A stretch of DNA of 64,000 bases, from NCBI RefSeq assembly GCF_029360665.1, contig NZ_JARDUB010000003.1, positions 496,001 to 560,000 of the forward strand, read 5' to 3'. The DNA is from Eudoraea chungangensis (lineage in GTDB: Bacteria; Bacteroidota; Bacteroidia; Flavobacteriales; Flavobacteriaceae). A program made the translations under genes and the position numbers. Shown piece after piece: positions 59,206 to 64,000 of this stretch. The notes beneath the pieces are model-generated. The model was not told the DNA's origin and made no database searches. It saw only the letters and a program-made list of their open reading frames with translations. How positions within the stretch are numbered: the stretch's first letter is position 1; every line of letters starts with the position of its first letter.

Positions 59206-60972
59206 TTAAATAATTCTTACTAATTCAAGCTGGTCATAACCTCCCCCATCATTCTCGTGCTTCAAATCTACACGCATCTCATCTATTTCCAAGATACTGT
59301 AGTCATTGGCTAAGGGATAGAAGTTGCTTCCCTGCTCGAAGGCAAGTATTAATTCTAATTTATTATTGGCATTTCTGAAAACAAACCATCTTCCGGAACT
59401 TATCACCATGGAATTCATGTCTCTCACCTCAAGAAGTCCATTTGTATTCATGACTAATGAATAGTCACTATATCCAGAAGTGGTTTCGTCTTCATTTTCA
59501 GCAAAGTAGGAAATCGCCCATTCTGTATCTCCAAATATATCTTTGATATAACTCACATCTTCATCGTTATTGTAATCCTGCTCACAATTTCGAATTAAAA
59601 CAAGCTCATAAAAGGTACCTTCTACGTTAAATTTTAATAATCTATCTTTTAAATCAGACAGCAACCATTCAAAGCTCACTCCAGGTTCGTCGCCCATAGT
59701 TATTGCCAAGACTGCTCTACCTGCATTATTCAGTTCTACTGCCCAGGTCCCTTCTATTACATTATTTTCATTACTCAACAAAACAACCCCGCCTTCATTG
59801 AATTCAAAAGAATAACCTAATAGTCTATTTAGGTGATCACCATTATTTTTTATTCGCTTAATGATCCATTCACATTCACCTAATATTTCTCTCAAAGTAT
59901 CCGGATTAGCTTCAAACAATTCACAAGCACTAACCATGATGATTTTGTTTCCTCCTTCGGCAAAAAGCTTAATTTTTCCCTGCTCCAATTCGTAAACCAA
60001 CCATTCCAGATTGAAATCAACCAAAACATCAAACTCTAGGCTAATTAATACCCCATGATCGGTCATACGTGTAGCCCACTGGCCCATTAAATTGTTCCCT
60101 GTTCTATCTTTAACAGTTACAGATCCATTTTCATTGAAATTCATTATGTAATCAAAGAACTGGTCTGTTTGATTAATTTCATCTCTAATAATCTCTTTAA
60201 TTAACCAAGGACACTTTACCAGTAATTCGTCTAAACGTTCTTTAGTAAAATCATCATCGTTATAATCGTTATCATCGTCTTCATCACAAGCTGCCTTTGT
60301 AGTTTCAATAGCATTCGCTAATTCGGCATTAGAGGTAACTTCCAGTTTAGAACCATCATATAATTCTAAGGTTATAGGGAAGTCTATACTAATTAGATCG
60401 CTTTCCTGAAGGTTAGCAAAAAATAACCTCAAGTCTTTGTCAGAAGTTACCGTTACAGAACCAGTTTCAACCTCGTTAAGATCAAAGGTGTACAAGGTAA
60501 TAGGATAGACAAAATCTATACATTCAATATCATCATCCTCTCCTCCTTCAATACATTCCTTAGCCAATGCAATTAGCTCTTCAGAATTATTTATTTCAAC
60601 TTCTGTAAAATCGGCCAGGGTAATAACTATTGGAAATATTATTTCTAAGATGTCATTGTCATCTTCCAATTCTTCAAATACCTCTTCTATAATTTGCAAA
60701 CCCTCTTTAGAGTCTACGGTTATTTCAATGCCATTGGCACGAACAGAATAGGGAAACTCAATTGCAAGACAGCTAGCGCCATCTACAATATTGTCATAAG
60801 ACCCGTCTCTAGAAACTGTCTTTTCCATAAGAAGGGCTGTGGTAGAATTTGCAACAATGGTCTGATTTTCATCGGCCTGAGGCAATTCTTCAAATTCGTC
60901 CTGACATCCTGTAAGGGTAAAAAACAAGATGAAAGCAAAAGCATGTAGGAAATTTTTAAAATAATTTTTCAT
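59206..60972 (-). CDS. modular repeat lipoprotein of unknown function
   Basis: 588 residues. Lipoprotein signal with lipobox TLTGC (Cys23). The body is two sets of internal repeats. Four copies of about 40 residues (about 68-108, 109-149, 151-193, 194-229) share '(I/F)xFP' then hydrophobic strands and 'VxSxxEL'. After an acidic Asp/Asn linker come three copies of about 100 residues (about 248-350, 360-463, 478-588) sharing CxW(I/L)IK, a FxFNxxG strand, GxW, LEF/..EWL and a closing Cys, resembling small lipocalin-like sandwiches. Paired Cys (C254/C350, C367/C463) suggest disulfides. It is divergent from the ECF sigma gene and carries a matching promoter. No function is known to me. Confidence 0.85.
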   Translation of the reverse strand: MKNYFKNFLHAFAFILFFTLTGCQDEFEELPQADENQTIVANSTTALLMEKTVSRDGSYDNIVDGASCLAIEFPYSVRANGIEITVDSKEGLQIIEEVFEELEDDNDILEIIFPIVITLADFTEVEINNSEELIALAKECIEGGEDDDIECIDFVYPITLYTFDLNEVETGSVTVTSDKDLRLFFANLQESDLISIDFPITLELYDGSKLEVTSNAELANAIETTKAACDEDDDNDYNDDDFTKERLDELLVKCPWLIKEIIRDEINQTDQFFDYIMNFNENGSVTVKDRTGNNLMGQWATRMTDHGVLISLEFDVLVDFNLEWLVYELEQGKIKLFAEGGNKIIMVSACELFEANPDTLREILGECEWIIKRIKNNGDHLNRLLGYSFEFNEGGVVLLSNENNVIEGTWAVELNNAGRAVLAITMGDEPGVSFEWLLSDLKDRLLKFNVEGTFYELVLIRNCEQDYNNDEDVSYIKDIFGDTEWAISYFAENEDETTSGYSDYSLVMNTNGLLEVRDMNSMVISSGRWFVFRNANNKLELILAFEQGSNFYPLANDYSILEIDEMRVDLKHENDGGGYDQLELVRII

Positions 60973-61004: not shown

Positions 61005-61032
61005 AACAATTAGGTTTTGAGAAACCCTACCT
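61005..61032 (-). promoter_or_regulatory. candidate ECF-sigma promoter for the modular lipoprotein gene
   Basis: On the minus strand AGGTAGGGTTT (61032-61022), 8 nt, CTAATTGTT (61013-61005), then 32 nt to the ATG at 60972. The same two boxes with identical 8-nt spacing precede fecR (61629-61656). Two matching sites aligned to two genes around an ECF sigma gene suggest they are its -35 and -10 elements. Confidence 0.6.
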
Positions 61033-61053
61033 CATTTTTAATTTTTTTTGAAA

Positions 61054-61061
61054 TATCTTTG
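61054..61061 (+). promoter_or_regulatory. Bacteroidota housekeeping -7 element before the ECF sigma gene
   Basis: TATCTTTG matches the TAnnTTTG -7 box of the primary sigma factor in Bacteroidota; no good TTG at -33 was found at the usual distance. A start about 7 nt downstream would put the transcript's 5' end near 61068, upstream of the ATG at 61093, and so argues against a TTG start at 61048. Confidence 0.45.
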
Positions 61062-61092
61062 GCAAAAACCATCCCCTTTAATAAATCGTATT

Positions 61093-61590
61093 ATGGACAA
61101 TGTATGTGAGGATGAAGTATTTAGCAACCTCTTTTCTACTCATTCTAAAACGGTATATAACTATATATATTATAAGTTCGGCAATGAAGAGAAAGCATAT
61201 GATGCCGTGCAAGAGGCTTTTATTAAACTTTGGGAGAATTGCGCCAAAGTTATTCCTGAAAAGGCCAAATCCTATGTTTATACGGTAGCCAATAACCTTT
61301 ATCTAAATGTAATCAAGGCAGAAAAAGTACGTTTAAAATATGCCAAACCTACCTATGAGATTTCTCACGAATCACCAGAATTTCTTTTAGAAGAGAAAGA
61401 ATACCAAGCTAAATTAGATGCAGCCTTAAACCGTCTACCTGAAAGTCAAAGAGCTACCTTTTTACTTAATCGAATTGATGGAAAAAAATATGCTGAAATA
61501 GCCGAAATGGAAGGTGTGAGTGTAAAAGCTATAGAAAAGAGAATGCATTTGGCCTTAAAAAGCCTAAGGGAAGAAATACATGGCATTTAA
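61093..61590 (+). CDS. ECF RNA polymerase sigma factor (FecI-like)
   Basis: 165 residues from the ATG at 61093. Region 2 is visible in 'F..LFSTHSKTVYNYIYYKFGNEEKAYDAVQEAFIKLWEN' and region 4 in LPESQRATFLLNRIDGKKYAEIAEMEGVSVKAIEKRM, with a short linker; this is a minimal sigma70 of the extracytoplasmic-function group. A TTG at 61048 would add 15 residues but lies ahead of the likely -7 element. The sigma factor should be held inactive by the FecR-like protein encoded 89 nt downstream, with the receptor as signal input. Region 4 DNA contacts cannot be read from sequence alone. Confidence 0.92.
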   Translation: MDNVCEDEVFSNLFSTHSKTVYNYIYYKFGNEEKAYDAVQEAFIKLWENCAKVIPEKAKSYVYTVANNLYLNVIKAEKVRLKYAKPTYEISHESPEFLLEEKEYQAKLDAALNRLPESQRATFLLNRIDGKKYAEIAEMEGVSVKAIEKRMHLALKSLREEIHGI

Positions 61591-61628
61591 AATTTGAACC
61601 AAGGATTACCTAATTTTTATAATCCTCT

Positions 61629-61656
61629 AGGTAGGGTTTTTTATATGCTACTTGTT
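61629..61656 (+). promoter_or_regulatory. candidate ECF-sigma promoter for the fecR-receptor pair
   Basis: AGGTAGGGTTT (61629-61639), 8 nt, CTACTTGTT (61648-61656), then 23 nt to the fecR ATG. The two boxes and spacing match those upstream of the divergent modular lipoprotein gene, and several positions between them also agree. Confidence 0.6.
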
Positions 61657-61679: not shown

Positions 61680-62594
61680 ATGCAAGAGAATTACCTGGCA
61701 AAATGGCTTGCTAATGAACTAACAGAGGAAGAACTGGAGCTATTTAAAAAGTCTCCAGAATATGAGTCCTATGTGAAGTTAAAGAAGGCTTCTGCTTCTT
61801 TGAAGGCTCCAGATTTTGACAGTAGTAGAGTTTTACGGGCTGTAGAAGCCAGAAAGGATAAAAAGGAGACAAAAGTAATCTCCATTGCTAAACATCCTAA
61901 ACTATATCGGTATGCTGCGGCCATAGTTATATTGGTTGCCACCTCTTATTTCTATATTTCTACTTTAGACGACAAAGTAAGCACTCAATACGCAGAAAGA
62001 GAACAAGTTGTTCTCCCGGATCAATCGGAAATAATCCTTAATGCGGACTCTGAAATAAGCTACAGCAAAAAAGACTGGTCTAGGAAAAGAAAGATTGCAT
62101 TAGAGGGAGAAGCTTTCTTTAAGGTAGCAAAAGGGAAAAAGTTTACCGTACATACATCACAGGGACAGGTTGCGGTTCTTGGCACCCAGTTTAATGTAGA
62201 AAACAGAAAGGACTTCTTTGAAGTAAGTTGTTATGAAGGACTGGTGCAAGTGTCCTATAAAGGTGAAAAAATTGAACTTCCAGCCGGATCTTCGCTTGTA
62301 GTAATAAACGGATCTATTACACATACTGAAGTGCCAAAAAATGCCAGCCCATCCTGGTTGTTAAACGAGAGTACTTTTAAAAGTATTCCACTTCTTTATG
62401 TGTTGGATGAATTGGAAAGACAATATGATCTTGAAATTAGCACGCAAAATATTGATCTAAATCAGGCATTTACAGGATCTTTTAGCAACACAAGTTTAAA
62501 TTTAGCGTTACAGAGTATTAGTACTCCCTATCAAATAGCCTATTCTTTGGAAGGGAACAAAGTGCTATTTTATGCTGAAAGCGCCACGAAATAA
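61680..62594 (+). CDS. FecR-like anti-sigma/regulator protein
   Basis: 304 residues. Cytoplasmic N-terminal region (1-78) with the WLANELTEEELELFKKS opening common to Bacteroidota FecR, one transmembrane helix (about 81-97), then a periplasmic FecR domain (about 105-205; LPDQSEIILNADSEISY, LEGEAFFKV, VLGTQFNV) and a C-terminal DUF4974 region (about 230-300; FKSIPLLYVLDELERQYDLEI). It senses the receptor's STN domain in the periplasm and controls the sigma factor. Its last 23 nt overlap the start of the receptor gene. Confidence 0.92.
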   Translation: MQENYLAKWLANELTEEELELFKKSPEYESYVKLKKASASLKAPDFDSSRVLRAVEARKDKKETKVISIAKHPKLYRYAAAIVILVATSYFYISTLDDKVSTQYAEREQVVLPDQSEIILNADSEISYSKKDWSRKRKIALEGEAFFKVAKGKKFTVHTSQGQVAVLGTQFNVENRKDFFEVSCYEGLVQVSYKGEKIELPAGSSLVVINGSITHTEVPKNASPSWLLNESTFKSIPLLYVLDELERQYDLEISTQNIDLNQAFTGSFSNTSLNLALQSISTPYQIAYSLEGNKVLFYAESATK

Positions 62595-64000
62595 CATACT
62601 ACTCTTTTGTCTTTTCCTTTTAACACTTGTCTTCTCCGGGAATTCTCAGGATGGCAGTACAAAGGAGCAAATTAAACTTAATCTTTATCTTTTAGAGATT
62701 GAATCGGAATACGATATTAAGTTTTCTTTCGCGGACAAGGATTTGGCCAATCTGGAAATCACCGTTCCCAAGCAAGAAACTCTCGAGGAAATTCTGAATG
62801 AGATCAGGGCCCAAACCCAACTAGAAATAAATCAACTCAACAATCGCTACTATACAATCTCAAAAACTAAGGAAATTAATATCTGTGGTTATATTTTAAA
62901 TAACTACAATGAACTAACTGCCTCAGCGGCAACAATTGAGGTATTAAACAGCGATGTGAGCGCTTTGACAGATGCGAATGGCTATTTTTCCCTAAAAACC
63001 ATCCCAAGGGAAAGTACTATAAGAATTAGACATCTGGGTTTTAAGACGAAATACATCTCGGCAGAAAAGCTTTTATCAGAGAGACCCTGTTCAACTATTT
63101 TGTTAAGCTTAAACTACCAACAACTGGAAGAAGTTGTGGTATATAAGTTCCTGACCTCCGGGCTAGCTAAGGAAAAAGATGGTAGTATAAGTCTTCTCAC
63201 GGATGAGTTTGGAATAATACCTGGTTTAATTGAACCCGATGTACTGCAATCCATTCAGGCATTACCCGGAATTAAGAGCATTGATGAAAGAGTATCAGAT
63301 ATTAACATTAGAGGAGGAACCAACGATCAAAACCTAATTCTATGGGACGAAATTAAAATGTATCAATCTGGTCATTTTTTTGGTCTTATTTCGGCCTTTA
63401 ATCCTTATTTAACCGGAGAAGTAAGTATCGTTAAAAGTGGTACAAGTGCAGCCTATGGAGATGGGGTTAGCGGAATAATTAATATGAAGTCTAAAGACAG
63501 CATAGGAGGCAGACTAATGGGTGGTGCAGGTGTTAATCTAATTAACATGGATGCTTATGGTCAGATACCACTAAGTGAAAAATTAGCATTGCAGTTTTCA
63601 GCCAGACGATCTGTCACCGATTTTCTAAATACGCCAACCTATAATCAATTCTCGAAGAGAGTCTTTCAAGACACCAAAATACAGGAATTTGGTAATACGC
63701 CTAATCCAGAAGATGTTACTAGCGATGAAAACTTTTATTTCTATGATTTTACAGCCAAGATTTTATATGACATCTCCGAGGAACACAAAGCCAGATTTAG
63801 CTTTTTGGCCATCCATAATAATTTGGATTATTTAGAAAGCCAGGCACAATCAGGTAGAACCGATAAAAGTGGTTTAAACCAAACGAACCTTTCTTTTGGA
63901 GGTAACCTTTCTAGTGAGTGGTCTAACCGATTCTCCTCTAATTTAAATGCCTATTACAGCAGATATAATTTAGATTCGGAAAATGTAATTAACAACGGAG
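62572..64000 (+). CDS. STN-domain TonB-dependent receptor, 3' end outside window
   Basis: The reading frame opens at ATG 62572 inside the fecR tail and stays open to the window end (about 476 residues seen). Signal peptide (about 1-25, FSGNSQ); STN domain (about 30-85) as in FecA-type transducers; carboxypeptidase-regulatory-like domain (about 95-175; GYILNNYNELTASAATIEVLN, TDANGYFSLKTIP); plug domain (about 205-305; DVLQSIQALPGIKSIDERVSDINIRGG, GDGVSGIINM), then the beginning of the 22-strand barrel. It should take up a substrate and signal through FecR to the sigma factor. Ligand unknown; no SusD-like partner in view. Confidence 0.9.
   Translation, partial: MLKAPRNNILLFCLFLLTLVFSGNSQDGSTKEQIKLNLYLLEIESEYDIKFSFADKDLANLEITVPKQETLEEILNEIRAQTQLEINQLNNRYYTISKTKEINICGYILNNYNELTASAATIEVLNSDVSALTDANGYFSLKTIPRESTIRIRHLGFKTKYISAEKLLSERPCSTILLSLNYQQLEEVVVYKFLTSGLAKEKDGSISLLTDEFGIIPGLIEPDVLQSIQALPGIKSIDERVSDINIRGGTNDQNLILWDEIKMYQSGHFFGLISAFNPYLTGEVSIVKSGTSAAYGDGVSGIINMKSKDSIGGRLMGGAGVNLINMDAYGQIPLSEKLALQFSARRSVTDFLNTPTYNQFSKRVFQDTKIQEFGNTPNPEDVTSDENFYFYDFTAKILYDISEEHKARFSFLAIHNNLDYLESQAQSGRTDKSGLNQTNLSFGGNLSSEWSNRFSSNLNAYYSRYNLDSENVINNG

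Follow-up and report, generated by a model that had tools for sequence, protein, structure and literature searches.

One ECF sigma factor in a group of marine bacteria appears to drive its own inhibitor and a TonB-dependent receptor, a lipoprotein, a tiny membrane protein and a small RNA (sRNA) from matching promoters. The case starts from two sites in a 64,000-nucleotide stretch of Eudoraea chungangensis DNA, here called the window. We consider it highly probable that these sites are promoters of the ECF sigma factor encoded between them—a sigma factor held by a FecR-type protein, with an sRNA and small proteins among its further targets. The explanation rests on sequence comparison, from which the sites, their conservation, their co-variation with the sigma factor and the additional targets can be read directly; the promoter pair would be the visible edge of the circuit. 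What would be new is that a FecR-type sigma factor governs a conserved sRNA and micropeptides. No description of a FecR system with an sRNA, or of GTAGGGTTT, was found in the literature searched, which left most subscription journals outside.

To our knowledge, ECF sigma factors are numerous in Bacteroidota and few have a known promoter or regulon. A genome-unique promoter type, confirmed over tens of genera, provides a short and directly testable target list for one of them; the outputs of FecR-type systems, in turn, gain a previously unrecorded conserved sRNA and two families of tiny membrane proteins.

A probable promoter pair around one sigma gene

The preliminary description of the window had reported the same two boxes twice with exactly 8 nt between them, and had named the frequency of the boxes across the genome as a check that could refute their significance. 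The description holds, and the check did not refute it. The pair AGGTAGGGTTT-N8-CTANTTGTT is present without mismatch at 61005-61032 on the minus strand and at 61629-61656 on the plus strand, the spacer being 8 nt each time, and these remain the only two sites at zero to two mismatches in the whole genome (3,725,850 bases, 17 contigs). Shuffling the window gives an expectation of 0.06 matches with three mismatches allowed, and none of 100 shuffles has a match with two; the reversed pattern, used as a control, has no match in the whole genome. Near-matches elsewhere in the same genome (L066-L070 and L003) were rejected as chance, since they lie inside reading frames.

The sites sit one on each flank of a sigma gene and both are directed away from it. 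On the minus side lies a gene for a lipoprotein of 588 amino acids (59206-60972, minus strand), with the lipobox LTGC and a predicted outer-membrane location; its putative promoter, AGGTAGGGTTT-N8-CTAATTGTT, ends 32 nt before the ATG. The sigma gene (61093-61590, plus strand; start picked from conserved homologs) satisfies the criteria for an ECF factor, with sigma regions 2 and 4 (PF04542, 42.7 bits; PF08281, 60.6 bits) in 165 amino acids; regions 1 and 3 were not found in it by domain search. TIGR02985, a Bacteroidetes ECF subfamily, scored best of 92 families, at 121.4 bits against a cut-off of 126.4. The second putative promoter, AGGTAGGGTTT-N8-CTACTTGTT, ends 23 nt before the ATG of fecR (61680-62594, plus strand), which encodes an anti-sigma factor or sigma regulator of 304 amino acids with PF04773 (E 1.8e-22) and FecR_C domains. 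This FecR-type regulator, the only one in the genome, adjoins the sigma factor and so satisfies the criterion for cell-surface signalling of the FecI/FecR/FecA type.

A TonB-dependent receptor gene follows (62572-64000, plus strand) and extends beyond the window end; its complete reading frame (L071:2573-5161) encodes 862 amino acids. The Plug and CarbopepD_reg_2 domains exceed their Pfam cut-offs, and the STN domain is weak (19.8 bits, cut-off 28.4). Because the receptor gene overlaps the fecR stop, the two are probably co-transcribed, and because the next gene is convergent (an arginyl-tRNA synthetase by its sequence), the operon would consist of fecR and the receptor gene. With the motif preceding fecR and the overlap at its stop, the receptor gene meets the description of a gene under a putative sigma-dependent promoter. 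Iron-uptake genes were not seen in the block, and haem, ABC transporter and hemophore genes are absent from it.

Conservation of the block and its core motif

We used the lipoprotein as query against 149 genomes of Flavobacteriaceae. In the best 30 loci the neighbouring sigma gene is divergent to the lipoprotein gene, and fecR comes next after the sigma gene in 29 of the 30. Both promoters, with exactly 8 nt spacing, are present in all of eighteen genomes (L007-L024): that of E. chungangensis itself, 16 in which the sigma factor is 73-86% identical and one in which it is 55% identical. The site ends 23-26 nt before the ATG of fecR and 32-39 nt before that of the lipoprotein gene.

This comparison also refines the boxes. 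GTAGGGT in the first and TGTT in the second, as originally defined, are invariant in all 36 sites of the 18 genomes; the CTA assigned to the second box does not stand, for relatives have TGG, TCA, TAA, ATA and others in its place. The leading AG of the first box is purine-rich among relatives, and the spacer varies. The true core is GTAGGGT-N14-(T/C)TGTT (36 sites, 18 genomes), in which GTAGGGT would be the -35 element and (T/C)TGTT the -10 element—an assignment that forms part of the explanation favoured here and shares the high confidence we place in it as a whole.

The strict form of this pattern stands on both sides in 67 of 80 further named loci, where 0.003 would be expected per ~10-kb locus; at least three of the 13 loci that fail end at contig ends. 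The 80 include Flagellimonas/Allomuricauda, Eudoraea, Maribacter, Zobellia, Arenibacter, Cellulophaga and Robiginitalea. As judged from these genomes, the divergent lipoprotein/ECF sigma/fecR block is conserved in a large marine branch of the Flavobacteriaceae, comprising tens of genera. Since the relatives belong to one branch of one family, the counts are not independent events.

Could the two sites nevertheless be alike by chance, or through a recent duplication of DNA? They share an identical 11-mer and eight of nine bases in the second box, and they lie in one locus; but chance supplies only 0.06 expected matches in the window, the spacers and flanks differ, and the pair has been kept in tens of genera. 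We regard this reading as already refuted, its remaining probability being negligible.

Four distant sigma/fecR pairs, with sigma factors 52-59% identical (L040, L047, L053 and L065, from genomes G033, G002, G138 and G114), have the same motif before fecR, and the promoter type therefore reaches past the main clade.

Probable recognition by the neighbouring sigma factor

In twelve distant loci, with sigma factors ~50% identical, GGGTAGGAAWW...ACTGTT replaces GGTAGGGTTT...TTGTT. The changed motif can be made out on both flanks of the sigma gene in six of the twelve and on a single flank in four; under the scoring used, at least one flank has no recognisable motif in six of the twelve. The sigma factors of this distant clade have an altered stretch in region 4, close to the C-terminus (SVKAIEKRMHLAL versus STKAVEKRIYGAL).

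The sigma gene has a promoter element of another kind. It had been proposed to use a housekeeping promoter, and conservation bears this out: the putative sigmaA -7 box TATCTTTG (61054-61061, plus strand) is conserved as TAnnTTTG at the same place, and TAnnTTTG lies upstream in 76 of 77 loci, where shuffled sequence would give 3.2. In Bacteroidota, TAnnTTTG is the -7 element used by the housekeeping sigma factor (PMC9723704, PMC7366714), and ECF-linked promoters of Bacteroides thetaiotaomicron are reported to have TGTT near -10 (PMC12596196). We take the neighbouring sigma factor to be the reader of the sites because they change together with it, because FecR is single in the genome, because TGTT lies near -10 as in Bacteroides, and because the sigma gene has TAnnTTTG. 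The original proposal that the adjacent ECF sigma factor targets these sites as promoters, uniting the lipoprotein with the fecR/TonB receptor system, thus finds support in the conservation of boxes, spacing, polarity and start-codon distance, and in the co-change with the sigma factor; no transcript data are available.

The same features weigh on the idea that the boxes bind a transcription factor, activator or repressor, acting over both genes without any sigma promoter. Regulators, too, can have paired and phased sites, and the element is long, information-rich and conserved. A transcription factor would leave unexplained, however, why polarity toward the gene, the two-box spacing and the 23-26 nt to the fecR ATG are all fixed, why TGTT occupies the -10 place as in the Bacteroides ECF promoters, and why the motif changes together with the sigma factor; nor does the block hold any other regulator gene. 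We hold this reading to be very improbable and retain the sites as sigma-dependent promoters.

A putative small RNA beside pdxH

The lipoprotein and fecR sites, and no others, went into a sequence-only model (R2) that was applied to 17 whole genomes. In the E. chungangensis genome it returns the fecR site (E 5.6e-5), the lipoprotein site (1.1e-4) and one further site (2.5e-4), the next match reaching only 0.455. The further site (G000:C4:323934-323964, minus strand) has a pdxH-like gene on one side and a convergent gene on the other. Downstream of it come ~115 nt that hold no reading frame and end in a strong intrinsic terminator—a putative sRNA running on the minus strand of the same contig from ~323930 down to 323815.

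A covariance model (R1) made from the 3' part of the sRNA only, with the promoter excluded, was searched against the 149 genomes and gives 19 homologs with E values no higher than 2e-4. All 19 are preceded by the promoter, which matches at 16-18 of 18 positions, and in 18 cases pdxH is adjacent; four of the 19 had built the model and had themselves first been noticed via the promoter, and the other 15 are independent of it. The next 11 matches were rejected, having neither the motif nor pdxH. A twentieth sRNA, in genome G056, was recovered through its promoter. Control windows at unrelated places never reach 16 of 18 positions (0 of 1750). The sRNA is present in 20 of the 21 genomes with this sigma clade and in none of the 128 without it. 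Its terminator stems change in sequence and keep their pairing, TTCATGTGTTTAGGTTGGTTTTTGATT is almost unchanged, and a search of Rfam with four of the loci gave no match up to E 1.

With its own promoter, no conserved frame and an intrinsic terminator, the element meets the definition of a sigma-dependent small RNA, though a putative one. Expression data are lacking and a short ATG-containing stretch, ATGTGTTTAGGTTGG, is conserved, so that it might instead be a leader, part of a longer transcript or a very small protein-coding gene. Yet the reading frame of ATGTGTTTAGGTTGG is not maintained, for which reason it was rejected as a coding gene; the T-run is 4-7 long and the ATG is missing in some homologs. 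A covarying intrinsic terminator, moreover, ends the element, and the downstream gene is convergent. A regulatory sRNA remains our reading, and we think the alternatives unlikely.

Outside the sRNA gene itself, 10 genomes hold seven exact complements of the sRNA core (AACCAACCTAAAC). Five of them lie 2-9 nt upstream of a start codon, a permease gene and a peptide transporter gene being among those concerned. With one mismatch allowed, in four genomes, 10 of 33 sites fall in start regions, where a scrambled 13-mer has 4 of its 50 sites (p 0.01); nine of the 10 were assigned by the script's rule and one (L338) by eye. The excess could be an effect of composition, since A and C abound in the start regions of this family, and pairing of the sRNA over translation starts is no more than a lead. 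Trans-acting RNA control of mRNAs in a phylum without Shine-Dalgarno sequences is termed an open question in PMC7366714; the sRNA, whose promoter is fixed and whose single-stranded core is strongly conserved, is a good test case for it.

Two structural variants were seen among the homologs. About 80 nt past the sRNA terminator in L043 (genome G026), TTTAGGTTGG appears in a second stretch that is closed by a separate terminator, as if from a partial tandem duplication of the sRNA. Five homologs (L098, L103, L105, L101 and L095, from genomes G126, G129, G037, G120 and G108) have an extra hairpin-like insertion, ACTTCATCC...GGATGAAGT, that separates the conserved 5' end AAATTGCTATGAAAAAG from the 3' core, giving RNAs of ~170-260 nt.

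Small membrane proteins and other probable targets

A small membrane protein of 54-61 residues with one hydrophobic segment (MDVINEIIxxSAIGxLS...IQFGY) was found in 14 genomes by protein search alone; the strict motif lies 66-88 nt upstream in 12 of them and is weakened in two. Divergence at the three codon positions is 0.39/0.19/0.59, as a coding gene should show. The E. chungangensis gene (61 amino acids; G000:C6:285453-285635, minus strand) has a promoter site matching 16 of 18 positions, weaker than the other three sites of the genome and below the R2 search threshold.

The other family is a hydrophobic micropeptide of 26-40 residues (MxTFLSILLLLLLINTVLLAxSVN), whose gene is convergent with one for a peptidyl-prolyl isomerase (PPIase) of FKBP/cyclophilin type. 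Together with the motif it was found in seven genomes via the promoter model (L149, L150, L152, L154, L160, L161 and L166) and in 8 of 14 further genomes via the isomerase alone. It was not found in the E. chungangensis genome, though a relative of the same genus (G104) has one. In relatives, further sites precede genes for lipoproteins, secreted proteins and a few others, at a distance of 28-61 nt (97 nt in one case).

The distribution of these distant targets is relevant to the possibility that the sites are true ECF promoters read by some other ECF sigma factor of the genome. ECF specificities overlap, and further ECF sigma factors may exist in this genome (their number is uncounted); another reader is nonetheless hard to reconcile with a single FecR, with sites that flank the neighbouring sigma gene wherever that gene occurs, and with an sRNA and a small protein that follow the presence of its clade. 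We attach very little weight to this possibility, and keep the neighbouring sigma factor as the reader.

Lipoprotein genes with the sigma promoter were also observed in L162, L163, L164 and L168 (genomes G126, G056, G104 and G032), and three of the lipoproteins have related N-termini, LKLSAKxSxNxxSAK.

Proposed circuit and related systems

In the circuit we propose, RNA polymerase with the ECF sigma factor encoded between the sites would read both promoters, transcription starting ~7 nt after (T/C)TGTT; transcription itself is inferred, in the absence of start, expression or mutant data. The sigma factor would be made constantly from its housekeeping promoter and held by FecR in the inner membrane, the role of FecR as inhibitor rather than activator being likewise an inference. 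On a signal via the TonB-dependent receptor, FecR would free (or chaperone) the sigma factor. The signal route and the ligand are also inferred, and since the receptor STN domain falls below the Pfam cut-off, the FecA-like route is less certain than the promoters. The freed sigma factor would transcribe fecR and the receptor gene, a self-limiting feedback that re-caps the response; it would transcribe the lipocalin-repeat lipoprotein gene divergently, and elsewhere, from the same promoter type, the sRNA and the 61-residue membrane protein. The effects of these last two can only be inferred—envelope adjustment is the most likely role, with the sRNA perhaps acting by pairing over translation starts. 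A bolder version, which is possible and which we would sooner doubt than adopt, is that the FecR-controlled sigma factor commands an envelope-stress programme with an RNA arm, in which the sRNA would block the translation starts of mRNAs for inner-membrane transporters, in bacteria that have no Shine-Dalgarno signals, and in which lipocalin-type lipoproteins and the two membrane micropeptide families would remodel the envelope.

Enterobacterial sigmaE is an envelope-linked ECF sigma factor with an sRNA arm (MicA, RybB). It works with RseA instead of FecR, and its sRNAs rely on Hfq; compared with those sRNAs, the targets of the Eudoraea sRNA are unproven. ECF-driven sRNAs are already known for RpoE2 of Sinorhizobium (PMC6180224).

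The wiring proposed here is like that of HasI and HasS, since HasI of Serratia marcescens drives hasS and hasR, not itself, whereas FecI does not drive fecIR; in E. coli, fecIR is sigma70-controlled without autoregulation, and FecI acts at the fecA promoter (PMC9249621). As in the HasI/HasS/HasR system, the Eudoraea sigma factor would drive its own anti-sigma gene and a TonB-dependent receptor, but not itself, and the HasI -35 element, TTTACGGGTTT, has GGGTTT in common with GTAGGGTTT. Eudoraea differs in its phylum, Bacteroidota, and in the outputs that would be added: the lipocalin-repeat lipoprotein, encoded divergently, together with the small membrane protein and the sRNA. With FecI/FecR/FecA of E. 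coli it has in common an ECF sigma factor, a FecR-type regulator and a TonB-dependent receptor; a FecI/FecR system in the strict sense it is not, as fecR has its own sigma motif and the sigma gene stands separate with a sigmaA -7 box.

Nearer relatives offer partial parallels, here confined to the available portions of the sources. The ECF promoters of B. thetaiotaomicron and PM2 combine TGTT near -10 with another box near -30 (PMC12596196; PMC7366714), but those portions report no GTAGGGT-type -35 element, and the sigma factors and targets differ. SM5/SM6 of Flavobacterium psychrophilum come from the same family, and the sRNA Rfp11 starts at the ECF-type promoter SM6 (PMC9723704); SM6, in contrast, has a CGT box and serves secretion genes, and no GTAGGGT motif is described in the part available.

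The lipoprotein

No Pfam or NCBIfam family covers the lipoprotein in domain searches. Its predicted architecture comprises four short beta/alpha repeats, an Asp-rich linker and three lipocalin-like barrels (AlphaFold2 model, mean pLDDT 77.7, pTM 0.44). Foldseek matches to the whole model (e.g. TbpB, carboxylases) were discarded because their TM-scores were very low, and alignments of single barrels were taken instead. Single barrels align with Vibrio ToxS (8u2f; Z 12.2, 97 residues, 2.2 A), the Bacteroides lipocalin-like protein 4qrl (Z 10.6) and DUF4847 (4zgf; Z 10.5). A common fold does not establish the function of the lipoprotein, and binding of a hydrophobic ligand is a guess from the model. 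The Asp-rich linker that joins the N-terminal repeats to the barrels, CDEDDDNDYNDDDF (residues ~229-242; window 60240-60310, minus strand), is nearly invariant and is possibly a calcium site.
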